In this document: positions 14,723 through 32,486 of the stretch, in pieces
How positions within the stretch are numbered: the first letter of the stretch is position 1
Layout: every line of letters begins with the position of its first letter
NCBI GenBank assembly: GCA_022448485.1
Contig: JAKUUI010000016.1
Coordinates: 1 to 38,941 of the forward strand
DNA length: 38,941 nt
Origin: SAR324 cluster bacterium
GTDB taxonomy: Bacteria; SAR324; NAC60-12
Direction of reading: 5' to 3'
The notes under the pieces: generated by a model
Databases searched by the model: none
Told to the model about the DNA's origin: nothing
What the model saw: the letters and a program-made list of their open reading frames with translations, nothing else
Position numbers and translations under genes: made by a program

Positions 14723-15874
14723 TCAGGCCTTCACAGAACCAGTTACCAGTCCACGGACGAAGTAACGCTGCAGAGTAAAGAACACAATCAGTGGTACAAT
14801 AATCGAAATGAAAGCACTGCTGGTTAAAATCTCCCAGTTATCACCGCGTGAACCCAACAGTTCCCTTAATTTTGAAGTCAGTACGATCTGGTTATCTTGT
14901 TTACCAAGGAAAACGAGTGCCACCAATAAATCGTTCCAAACCCACAAAAATTGAAAAATACAAAATGAAGCCAAGGCAGGAACTGATAACGGAAGAACCA
15001 GTCTGGTAAAAATCTGGAAATGCGTTGCCCCGTCAATACGGGCAGATTCTATGATCTCTCGGGGCAGACTTCCCATATAATTACGCAGAAGATAAATTGC
15101 CAGCGGCAAACCAAATCCGGTGTGTGCCAGCCAGATCCCTGGATACGATTTAGCCACTACGCCAAAATAGTTTCCAATTTCATTGTACATGCTCAACAGC
15201 GGAATCAAGGACATCTGTAGAGGTACAACCAGCAACCCAACAACACTAACAAAAAGAAACCGCCGCCAGGGAAACTCCATCCAGGCAAACGCGTAAGCAG
15301 CAAAAGAGGCTATCATTATAGGAATGACAGTAGCCGGAATCGTTACTCTCAGCGTATTGATGAATGATTGTCCAACACCCTCTGAAGATAATACTTCACG
15401 ATAATTGTCTAATGAAAAAGTGGGGGGAACTTTGGCAACATAAAAAATCCGTTTACCTCGTTTATGTTTGAAAGGAACATTAGAGACCCATTCGTAGTCA
15501 CCGCTTTCCTGCAGAGTAAAAAGACTGCTGTCTTTGAATTTTACGGTATCTCCAGCTTCATGGGCAGTCAGATTACGATAATTTGTACTGAAGGTTTGGA
15601 TTTTTTTACCTCCTGGTTCAAGCAAGTTTCCGGCAATGACATATTTTCCATTACGTTCGACCTGATCTTCCTGGATTCCAGTTCTCCTGAATTCGCTCCT
15701 TTCTGCAGTAGAAAGTGCGGTCCACCATCCTGTAAGTGCCAGCTGATCCTTGTCACGGAATGAACTCACAAACAGACCTATTGTTGGCAATATCCAAAGC
15801 AGCACCAAAATCAGCAGTCCCATTGAGTTAATTATCCGCCCAAAAGAAAATGATTTGCGTTTCATAGGACTCAT
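14723..15874 (-). CDS. aglG: Alpha-glucoside ABC transporter permease AglG
   Basis: A 383-residue MalG-type permease. One N-terminal helix (~15-35) is followed by a long periplasmic loop (~36-150), which is characteristic of AglG, and then five transmembrane helices. The EAA loop that contacts the ATPase is REIIESARIDGATHFQIF. Start ATG 15872-15874 overlaps the aglF stop (ATGA) and has GAGGAG just upstream. An in-frame ATG at 15913 would sit inside aglF and is less likely. It forms the channel with AglF and should be energised by the AglK-like ATPase encoded on the other strand. Confidence 0.9.
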   Translation of the reverse strand: MSPMKRKSFSFGRIINSMGLLILVLLWILPTIGLFVSSFRDKDQLALTGWWTALSTAERSEFRRTGIQEDQVERNGKYVIAGNLLEPGGKKIQTFSTNYRNLTAHEAGDTVKFKDSSLFTLQESGDYEWVSNVPFKHKRGKRIFYVAKVPPTFSLDNYREVLSSEGVGQSFINTLRVTIPATVIPIMIASFAAYAFAWMEFPWRRFLFVSVVGLLVVPLQMSLIPLLSMYNEIGNYFGVVAKSYPGIWLAHTGFGLPLAIYLLRNYMGSLPREIIESARIDGATHFQIFTRLVLPLSVPALASFCIFQFLWVWNDLLVALVFLGKQDNQIVLTSKLRELLGSRGDNWEILTSSAFISIIVPLIVFFTLQRYFVRGLVTGSVKA

Positions 15875-16875
15875 CGTGACTCCTCTTCTTTCCGGAAGTT
15901 CTCGATATTCCATATCATAATCGGAATTACCGCTATCATTATCATCAGTGCAATCACACTTCCCCGTCCGGAATCTCCACCGCCCCGGAACATCCAGTCA
16001 AACATCAGGTTTGCCAAAACTTCTGTGCCCCACTGCCCATTGGTCATGGCAAGCACAATGTCAAATATTTTAAGGACAATTATCGTTATTGTGGTCCAAA
16101 CAACCAAGATGGTTCCTATAATTTGGGGAATCATTATTTTGAAAAAAATTTGAATTTCGCTGGCTCCATCAATGCGTGCAGCTTCCAACGTTTCTTCCGG
16201 AATGCTGCGTAGCGCTGCACTGAAAATCACCATCGCAAAGCCAGTTTGAATCCAGACCAAGATCACCATCAAGAAAAAATTATTCCAGAAAGGAAGTGTT
16301 ATCCATGCTTGTGGTTCACCACCTAATAACATTACGAATGCATTCAAACTTCCGATTTGGTCGGCATCCGGACCTCGGAAATCATAAACAAACTTCCAAA
16401 TCACGCTGGCTCCAACAAATGAGATGGCCATCGGCATAAATATTAAGGACTTGGCAAGCGTACCCCATGAAACTTTATCTGCAAGTACTGCCACTACCAA
16501 CCCAAAAACTACACTCAAGGTTGGTACAAACACCAGCCACAGGAGATTGTTCAAAACCGCATGCAGGAATTCAGGATTTTCAAAGGCCCATATGTAATTT
16601 TTAAGACCTACAAAATCAAAGCCTCCAAAGTTAAAAAAACTCAAACGGATGGTTTCACAAACCGGATAAACAAGATAAACGCTGAGCAGGACCAAAGCCG
16701 GAGTCAAAAACAACCAGGGCTGAATTGCTCTTCTCCATCGATCTTTACTGTGGGAAAAACCATCTGTATCAGGGAAAATCTGCTCCAGCATAAAATTGGT
16801 GCCTGCGAAATAGAGCACGCAAACTCCAATACCTAAAACAACAGCATATAATGCATCCAAGAGTTGTTCTAACAT
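15871..16875 (-). CDS. aglF: Alpha-glucoside ABC transporter permease AglF
   Basis: A 334-residue MalF-type permease. An N-terminal helix (~8-28) and a hydrophilic stretch come first. Then come six core helices starting at WLFLTPALVLLSVYLVYPV, with the EAA loop EETLEAARIDGASEIQIF near residue 220. Translationally coupled to aglG. Its ATG at 16873-16875 lacks a Shine-Dalgarno; a pyrimidine-rich tract (sense strand, 16885-16906) lies ahead of it instead. A 112-nt structured element separates it from aglE upstream. Confidence 0.9.
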   Translation of the reverse strand: MLEQLLDALYAVVLGIGVCVLYFAGTNFMLEQIFPDTDGFSHSKDRWRRAIQPWLFLTPALVLLSVYLVYPVCETIRLSFFNFGGFDFVGLKNYIWAFENPEFLHAVLNNLLWLVFVPTLSVVFGLVVAVLADKVSWGTLAKSLIFMPMAISFVGASVIWKFVYDFRGPDADQIGSLNAFVMLLGGEPQAWITLPFWNNFFLMVILVWIQTGFAMVIFSAALRSIPEETLEAARIDGASEIQIFFKIMIPQIIGTILVVWTTITIIVLKIFDIVLAMTNGQWGTEVLANLMFDWMFRGGGDSGRGSVIALMIMIAVIPIMIWNIENFRKEEESR

Positions 16876-16921
16876 AACGGATTTTTTGGGAGAGGGAGGG
16901 GGGTGTTAACAAGGACTCGAA

Positions 16922-17033
16922 TCGGCAGGGCCGCCTTACATGGCGGAAACTAGGCTCTTTTCATGCTGCCTTTCACAAGGCTACACACAGGCATAATCCC
17001 ACTTTTGGCCGACACGTTGGTCAGCCCTACCGA
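16922..17033 (-). repeat. Hairpin-rich element with imperfect terminal inverted repeats, aglE-aglF intergenic (REP/MITE-like)
   Basis: In agl-sense orientation the ends TCGGTAGGGCTG and CGGCCCTGCCGA can pair over 12 contiguous positions, two of them G-U. Inside are a GCCTT-GTGA-AAGGC hairpin (16968-16981) with a GNRA-type loop, a GGCTGAC/GTCGGCC hairpin (17007-17026), and CCGCC/GGCGG (16931-16946). The outer helix and the two end hairpins compete. Only one copy is visible here, so whether it is a dispersed repeat, a MITE or a cis-acting RNA is open. Its position resembles the REP cluster between malE and malF in E. coli, which protects upstream binding-protein mRNA. Confidence 0.5.
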
Positions 17034-17047
17034 AAATTTTGGATCCC

Positions 17048-18364
17048 TTACTTAATGGAATCCCAACTGGACTGCACATTATCGGCGACTTTTTTGGCAG
17101 AAGCACCGCTCACAAAGTACACCATTTGACTCCAGAAAGAACCGGCACCAATAGAACCAGGCATCAGGTCGGAACCATCGAAACGGAAGGTGGTTGCGTT
17201 TTGCAGAATTTCACCTTGCTTACGCAAAATACCACTGGAGTATTTGCTCAGGTCTACGCCTTTATGTGGAGTCAGAAATCCAGCGCGTGCCATCCAAATT
17301 TCGTGAGATTTTGGATGCTGCAGATACTCCATAAAAGCACGGGTAGCACTGCTGTCTTTGGTTATTGCAAGCAAAGTTCCGCCACCCAGAACAGGGTTCC
17401 CCAATTTCTTCGTGGAATAAGAGGGGAAATAGAAGAAATCTGCGTCAACTCCAACTTTCACACTTTTTGGAAAGAAAGCCGGAATGAAGCTAGCCTGGCG
17501 GTGCATATAGCAGCGAGGCGGTACAGTGAACAAGCCTTTTGGACTGTCTCTGAAATCAGTCGATCCGACAGCAGCCATACCGCCGTCTACAAACTTGCTG
17601 TTTTTTGCAAACTGACCAAAAGTTTCAATTGCACTCACTACACGTGGGTCATTGAATTTAACTTCATTGGTCACCCATCCATCATAAACTGAAGGAGACT
17701 GTGTACGCAGCATCAAATCCTCGACCCAGTCAGTTGCCGGCCAGCCTGTGGCGTCTCCGGAACCAAGACCGATGCACCATGGAGTTCCTCCATCTTTAAC
17801 AATCTGATTGCTCAAAGCAATCAACTCTTCCATGGTCTTCGGCAAAGAATATCCTGCAGACTCGAAGTTCTCAGGAACATACCAGACCAACGACTTCACG
17901 TTCACGTTGAAGAAAAATCCGTAGAACTGGTCTTTTCCTCCCTTGTTTTTGTATGTACCAAGGTCAACCCAGGACTGTCCTGCTGCATAATTTCTCTTGA
18001 CCCAGTTCTCAGTTTTGCTGCCCAAAGGAACCAGCCCTCCGATTGCAGCCATGTTTGCCGCAAGTCCGGGTTGAGGAAAAGCAGCAATGTTTGGTGGACT
18101 ACCAGCCTTGATGTCTATCACGATTTGCTGCTCGAAACTGTCCGAACCAGCATATTCAATCTTGGCCCCGGTGGACTTTTCGAAATAGGCGGTAACAGCT
18201 TCAAAGCTTTCCTCATCCCCGGTCAACCAAGGACCTGAAATCGAAACTGTCTGTCCATTAAGATTCGGACCTTTGTACTTTCCCGCCAACGCAGGCAGGC
18301 ACATCAGCGTTGTGGAAACAACTGCCAGCAACGTTACTTTCATGGCATTCATAAAATATTTCAT
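17048..18364 (-). CDS. aglE: Alpha-glucoside ABC transporter periplasmic binding protein AglE
   Basis: A 438-residue extracellular solute-binding protein of family 1 (MalE-like). It has a Sec signal peptide: MKYFMNAMK, a hydrophobic core, and cleavage after LPALA (residue ~27). The mature part has the GPWLTGDEESF and GSPPNIAAF stretches typical of AglE-type binding proteins. It captures alpha-glucosides for AglF/AglG. ATG 18362-18364 is preceded by AAAGGAG at seven bases (18372-18378, complement), supporting this start over later in-frame ATGs. First gene of the agl operon; the divergent beta-glucosidase gene shares its upstream region. Confidence 0.92.
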   Translation of the reverse strand: MKYFMNAMKVTLLAVVSTTLMCLPALAGKYKGPNLNGQTVSISGPWLTGDEESFEAVTAYFEKSTGAKIEYAGSDSFEQQIVIDIKAGSPPNIAAFPQPGLAANMAAIGGLVPLGSKTENWVKRNYAAGQSWVDLGTYKNKGGKDQFYGFFFNVNVKSLVWYVPENFESAGYSLPKTMEELIALSNQIVKDGGTPWCIGLGSGDATGWPATDWVEDLMLRTQSPSVYDGWVTNEVKFNDPRVVSAIETFGQFAKNSKFVDGGMAAVGSTDFRDSPKGLFTVPPRCYMHRQASFIPAFFPKSVKVGVDADFFYFPSYSTKKLGNPVLGGGTLLAITKDSSATRAFMEYLQHPKSHEIWMARAGFLTPHKGVDLSKYSSGILRKQGEILQNATTFRFDGSDLMPGSIGAGSFWSQMVYFVSGASAKKVADNVQSSWDSIK

Positions 18365-31160: not shown

Positions 31161-32486
31161 TTATTTATCCATCATATTGAGGAAGTTCGCATTCTCTTTG
31201 AATTTTTCCATTTTATCAATGAGAAATTCCAGTGCCTCAACCACGTTAAATTGAGAGAGCACTTTGCGTAAGACCCAAATACGGTCAAGATCAGCTTTTT
31301 CTACAAGCAGCTCCTCTTTACGTGTTCCAGACTTGCTGAGATCAATTGCAGGAAAAATCCGTTTTTCAACAGGTTTTCGATCAAGCACAAGTTCCATGTT
31401 GCCGGTTCCTTTGAATTCCTCAAAAATCACTTCGTCCATACGACTGCCTGTATCAATCAGTGCAGTTGCAATGATGGTCAAAGAACCACCTTCTTCAATA
31501 TTTCTGGCTGCACCAAAAAATCTTTTCGGTTTAAAAAGCGCGTTAGAGTCCACACCTCCGGAAAGAATTTTTCCACTTGGAGGTATGACTGTGTTAAAGG
31601 CCCGTGCAAGCCTTGTGATCGAATCCAGCAAAATTACTACGTCCCTTTGATGCTCAACAAGCCGCTTGGCTTTTTCCAGCACCATTTCAGAAACTTGAAC
31701 GTGGCGCGTTGCCGGTTCATCAAAGGTTGAGGCAACCACTTCTCCTTTGACAGAACGGCGCATATCCGTCACTTCTTCCGGACGTTCGTCTATCAACAGA
31801 ACAATCAAATCCACTTCAGGATGATTTTCAGTGATACTGTTTGCAATAGACTGTAAAATCATTGTTTTACCAGTCCTTGGTGGAGCAACAATCACTCCGC
31901 GCTGACCTTTTCCAATCGGTGATACAAGGTCAATAACCCGCGTGGTCAAGTCATTGTCTTTTCGTTCAAGATTTAGGTGTTCGTTTGGATGGAGCGGGGT
32001 GAGGTTGTCAAAGAGAATTTTCTCAAAAGCTTTATTCGGATCTCGGAAGTTTATTTCTTCAACCTTGAGCAATGCGTAATAGCGCTCGCTCTCCTTGGGC
32101 GGTCGTATTTGGCCGGCAACTGTATCGCCAGTCCGCAAATTAAAACGCCTGATCTGTGATGGTGAAACATAAATATCGTCAGGTCCAGGCAGATAGTTGT
32201 AATCTGGCGCTCGAAGAAATCCGAAACCGTCCGGCAATGCTTCCAAAACTCCGGCTCCGTAAATGATCCCTTTGCGTTTAGTCTGAGCCTGCAACAGTGC
32301 AAAGAGCAACTCCTGCCCTCGCAAACTGTTTGCATTTTCAATATCATATTCGCGTGCAATCTTAATTAGTGAATTAATATCTTTTTTCTTCAACTCGATT
32401 AAATTGAGTGTTTCTGGCTTTGAAGAATTTTCTGAATTTATTTTTGAATTATTACTATTACCGTTTTCGGGCCGACTTTTAGGCAT
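31161..32486 (-). CDS. rho: Transcription termination factor Rho
   Basis: A 441-residue hexameric RNA/DNA helicase that ends transcription. A short Asn/Ser-rich head (residues 1-25) precedes the Rho N-domain. The primary RNA site is GFGFLR (87-92), the P-loop is APPRTGKT (201-208), the Walker B segment is VVILLD, and [10 protein letters not shown] is the R/Q-loop region. All catalytic parts look intact, and the length is near the family norm of about 420. It begins the rho-rpmE-prfA group. Its 5' flank (32487 onward) is 324 bases without a gene. Confidence 0.96.

Follow-up and report, generated by a model that had tools for sequence, protein, structure and literature searches.

The 112-nt structured element located between the aglE-like and aglF-like genes of a SAR324 cluster bacterium (positions 16922–17033, agl-sense RNA from the minus strand) appears to be a degenerate REPIN, the relic of a tiny transposon, and its origin from a pair of REP units is well supported. 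This assignment was based on the presence of REP units at both ends of the element, on the similar REP pairs found in a relative (G026), on the REP-flanked RAYT genes detected in the genus and on the other REPs of the same genome (G000), which are single and lack a cognate RAYT. The REPIN probably acts now as a 3′ protective hairpin of the aglE mRNA, resulting in more aglE than aglF mRNA. The window, that is, the whole stretch of 38,941 nucleotides analyzed, is contig C68 of G000, a 2.7-Mb genome with a completeness of 87%. The element lies inside a gap of 172 nt, downstream of the ORF for the aglE-like sugar-binding protein (17048–18364, minus strand; SBP_bac_1, E 2e-18) and upstream of the ORF for the aglF-like permease (15871–16875, minus strand; BPD_transp_1, E 2.6e-14), which is followed by the genes for a second permease and an alpha-glucosidase-type protein. 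The aglF gene of G000 is 80% identical to that of SAR324-CTD7B (G001 in the comparison set).

The limits of the element given in a preliminary description of this DNA proved to be exact, and the pairings listed there were all recovered. The two ends form an outer helix of 12 bp (16922–16933 with 17022–17033, pairing probability about 1.0 in the sense RNA), two of whose pairs are G-U in the agl-sense strand and C-A on the opposite strand. The central GCCUU-GUGA-AAGGC hairpin with a GNRA loop (16968–16981, minus strand) belongs to the spacer that separates the two REP units and was present in both the MFE and the centroid folds, and the right-end hairpin (GGCUGAC/GUCGGCC) contains one G-U pair. 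The whole folds as a rod that begins about 15 nt past the aglE stop codon. The better fold claimed for the agl-sense RNA was also borne out by the proposed comparison with shuffled and antisense sequences: the sense RNA reached −49.2 kcal/mol (z −4.35, 0/200 shuffles), and the antisense RNA −36.5 kcal/mol (z −2.66, 1/200 shuffles). The idea of two competing folds held only in part. Either fold could form, yet their energies are far apart: as RNA, the rod (−49.2 kcal/mol) is about 20 kcal/mol more stable than the three separate hairpins (−27.7 kcal/mol), and the outer pairs have a probability of about 1; the separate hairpins could form in DNA or in RNA during synthesis. The G-U pairs had furthermore been read as a sign of selection on the sense RNA, a reading that was abandoned: all three asymmetric positions favor the sense strand, for which the two-sided chance is 0.25, and this asymmetry is not evidence of selection because it involves three positions only and GCAG/GTAG is ordinary REP variation. 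No intrinsic terminator was detected at the element in the terminator scan, and no T-run follows the hairpin.

To describe the ends of the element, a REP covariance model was built from 16 units of other SAR324 genomes, mostly G016, G026, and G048, with the window left out; the stems of these aligned units vary with compensation. The model ranked the two ends of the element first and second in the whole window, only the first being significant alone. The best match was unit 2, on the left (16922–16946, plus strand; 26.7 bits, E 8.6e-5), which has a GCAG tag, a 5-bp stem and a TTACAT-type loop (TCGG-CAG + GGCCGCC-TTACAT-GGCGG). The second-best was unit 1, on the right (17007–17033, minus strand; 13.2 bits), with a GTAG tag, a 7-bp stem and a CTACGT-type loop (TCGG-TAG + GGCTGAC-CAACGT-GTCGGCC). 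Both loops are of 6 nt, and the units are inverted head-to-head, with the GYAG tags at the outer ends and a spacer of about 60 nt. Unit 2 was identical at 25/27 positions to a unit of G026 (L003:1498–1529) and was also matched by BLAST (93%, E 3.9e-4). The match of unit 1 to the REP model is weak taken alone (E 0.16); it shares 21/27 positions with a CTACGT-loop unit of G026 (L190:359–390), and none of 20,000 random 27-mers of the window attained this value (best, 18 matching positions) or the 25/27 of unit 2. The GCAG variant of the tag was also found in REP units of loci L182 and L189. In G026, inverted REP pairs occur in which a CTACGT-loop unit faces a TTACAT-loop unit, as in the element, which at 112 nt is longer than the pairs of its relatives (57–75 nt). 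Another match, in G015 (C57), was discarded as it was not a good unit.

The homologue search proposed in the preliminary description, by BLAST and a covariance model, therefore recovered the REP units in relatives, but not the element as a whole, which is present as a single copy in G000 with no further copy detected by BLAST. When the whole element was compared with 98 genomes, the best foreign matches were multicopy SAR324 repeats, all of them to the left unit; the spacer gave only chance matches in these genomes and matched no known REPIN. Rfam gave no match within the element at E ≤ 10, a single chance match (E 0.72) falling outside it. Of the identities offered earlier, that of a REP family member is thus upheld, and that of a new regulatory RNA is not, as Rfam has no counterpart and the sequence is accounted for by the REP units.

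At E ≤ 1, the REP model matched at least five sites in G000 (one pair), 31 in G026, 40 in G022, and 19 in G016, all these counts being lower bounds. Besides the element, G000 contains at least four further REPs, all single, of which at least two lie squarely in gene gaps. One of these two occupies the gap between convergent genes. The other, a near-consensus REP (L174:983–1014, contig C113), was found within an operon, directly after the stop codon of a fadE-like (acyl-CoA dehydrogenase-like) ORF; a fadJ-like (enoyl-CoA hydratase-like) ORF begins about 15 nt further on. In G048, which belongs to another family of the same class, REPINs of 70 nt from the same REP family were present in several copies (L130, L131, and L136), one of them being near-completely palindromic.

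Among the 30 Y1-transposase loci of the order that were examined, two had REPs on both sides, one in G016 (C69; L128:2631–3499) and the other in G006 (C7; L207:1–1121). Both are flanked by REP arrays, score above the NCBI cut-off for REP-associated tyrosine transposases (NF047646), and are likely the autonomous source of the REP family. G001 carries a copy of the RAYT gene with two internal stops, and a partial match was detected in G026. No cognate RAYT was found in the 87% complete assembly of G000; the Y1_Tnp gene of its contig C181 was rejected as a candidate, because it is only distantly related (21% identity; 65 bits in NCBIfam, where the cut-off is 80) and has no flanking REPs. This makes a degenerate REPIN, with its mover absent from an incomplete assembly, the best classification of the element. 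As in the REPINs described by Bertels and Rainey (2011; PMC3116915), two GTAG-type units are inverted around a spacer, multicopy relatives exist and a REP-flanked RAYT is found in sister species; the element differs in its longer spacer and in that one REP pair was recognized in its genome, with no cognate RAYT in the assembly. It also resembles the GTAG-tagged REP superfamily, as surveyed previously, in the GYAG tag, the stem of 5–7 bp, the intergenic location downstream of ORFs and the head-to-head dimers of units with different loops. That survey, which comprises 24 families, does not mention SAR324 (PMC3733652).

The orthologous gap was then compared in ten relatives (G001, G003, G009, G011, G012, G016, G017, G019, G028, and G030). 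A hairpin was predicted in all of them (10/10), with a sequence unrelated to the element, and the REP pair was found at this gap in one species only. A rod of about 135 nt is common to G003, G012, G011, G016, and G009 (gaps L115, L116, L117, L118, and L119, respectively); it consists of two helices, with 90% of cells paired, and shows eight doubly changed pairs, compared with 3.4 in shuffles (0/500 shuffles reached eight). These compensated changes are suggestive of a conserved fold, and not proof of it, because they come from no more than five sequences, which also served to predict the structure. This rod is single-copy and not REP-like, and may represent a structured RNA of the genus. A match to it in G006 (L240) was dismissed as a chance hit, since it falls where a clpX-like coding sequence begins. 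Short G+C-rich hairpins occupy the gap in G001, G019, and the G017/G028/G030 group. This comparison of predicted folds shows that the operon has durably kept a hairpin at the aglE-aglF junction. A tree of both genes did not resolve G000, G016, G009, and G001, and is compatible with either replacement or original absence of the rod.

The same trend was observed outside the cluster. In 72 aglE-aglF gaps from several phyla, the median sense z was −2.64, compared with −0.85 in the other same-strand gaps of the same loci (p 9e-10), and −0.62 inside aglF. Of the aglE-aglF gaps L034–L113, 74% had a z below −2, and in the 72 gaps the sense fold was slightly stronger than the antisense one (p 0.04). 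These 72 loci are not independent, because many belong to Rhizobiales and Vibrio relatives; the statistic suggests that operons of this type generally carry a junction hairpin.

The structure in the malE-malF gap of Escherichia coli is composed of REPs. It stabilizes malE by resisting 3′-to-5′ exonucleases after downstream cleavage, and the binding-protein gene is invariably the stable one in five E. coli ABC operons that show differential decay (PMC5927463). The parallel with malE-malF had already been drawn in the preliminary description, and it is supported by the structured aglE-aglF gaps of the relatives and of other phyla. In both cases a sugar ABC operon has the gap between its binding-protein gene and its first permease gene, and inverted REP units fold in the sense RNA into a stable hairpin that is not a terminator. 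The differences are that the REP family and the phylum are others, and that the element, known from sequence alone, occurs only once in its genome and in degenerate form. Protection of the aglE mRNA is thus inferred from a place and form like those of malE-malF, from the lack of a terminator and from the RNase E/G and PNPase genes encoded in G000, and it is the most likely role because the relatives keep unrelated hairpins at the same place.

The REP pair would once have owed its spread to a RAYT like those that still have flanking REPs in sister species. Transcribed along with the agl genes, the element would fold into the long rod and, following endonuclease cleavage in the aglFG part of the mRNA, the rod would block 3′-to-5′ exonucleases. 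The aglE mRNA would then outlive the aglF-aglG mRNA, so that more binding protein than permease would be made. The SRPS stem-loops, located 3′ of a gene in an operon and setting a subunit ratio, are comparable, although in the material cited they are described in Clostridium and are apparently not REP-derived (PMC8219983).

Protection of the aglE mRNA was weighed against four other readings. Some REPs of E. coli (BIMEs) are bound by topoisomerase or IHF-type proteins, and the element might likewise have a role of this type, or as a RAYT target, at the level of DNA and none in RNA; the stronger folding of the sense strand and a location on the 3′ side of the gene for the binding protein, which is also that of the RNA-level cases, make this highly improbable. 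A neutral REPIN relic in a permissive gap, whose fold does not affect expression, would agree with the degenerate units, with the lack of a cognate RAYT in the assembly, with the location of the other G000 REPs in unrelated gaps and with the frequency of REPs without shown function in such gaps, as reported (PMC3733652). This explanation is nevertheless rather unlikely, given the hairpins at the same junction in all ten relatives, the structured gaps found across phyla and the near-perfect outer helix of the element.

The rod might also work as an attenuator, a partial terminator between aglE and aglF perhaps aided by Rho. A strong hairpin lies where a step-down is wanted and a rho gene is encoded within the window (31161–32486), but the absence of a T-run and of any terminator-like site in the scan, together with relatives' rods that have no U-tract directly after the stem, leaves little in favor of this possibility. 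Finally, the element and the rod of G003, G012, G011, G016, and G009 could be homologues, members of one conserved regulatory RNA present in single copy, and the likeness of the element to REPs would then be only apparent. The place is the same, the size and overall rod shape are similar, and a weak local alignment to the G003 rod was obtained (z 3.3); however, the remaining four rods did not align with the element (z −0.6 to 1.9), BLAST gave no match between element and rod, and the ends of the element match REPs while the relatives' rods do not. Homology with that rod is accordingly disfavored and very unlikely.

If a REPIN protects the aglE mRNA, an uncultured marine lineage would join those with the malE-malF arrangement. 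The REP pair, the single-copy rod and the short hairpins form a natural series at one orthologous junction, and therefore the recruitment of mobile repeats as mRNA stabilizers can be addressed there. Tentatively, the junction of aglEFG-type operons may demand a 3′ hairpin of any sequence, which turns over and is rebuilt from the material at hand, in this case a REPIN; if so, mobile repeats would serve as replacement parts for the control of operon stoichiometry. As a separate observation, the leader of aglF (16876–16908) has a pyrimidine run (CACCCCCCTCCCTCTCCC) and no Shine-Dalgarno-like stretch, and the same style occurs in relatives (CCTTCCTTTTACTCTTCTC).
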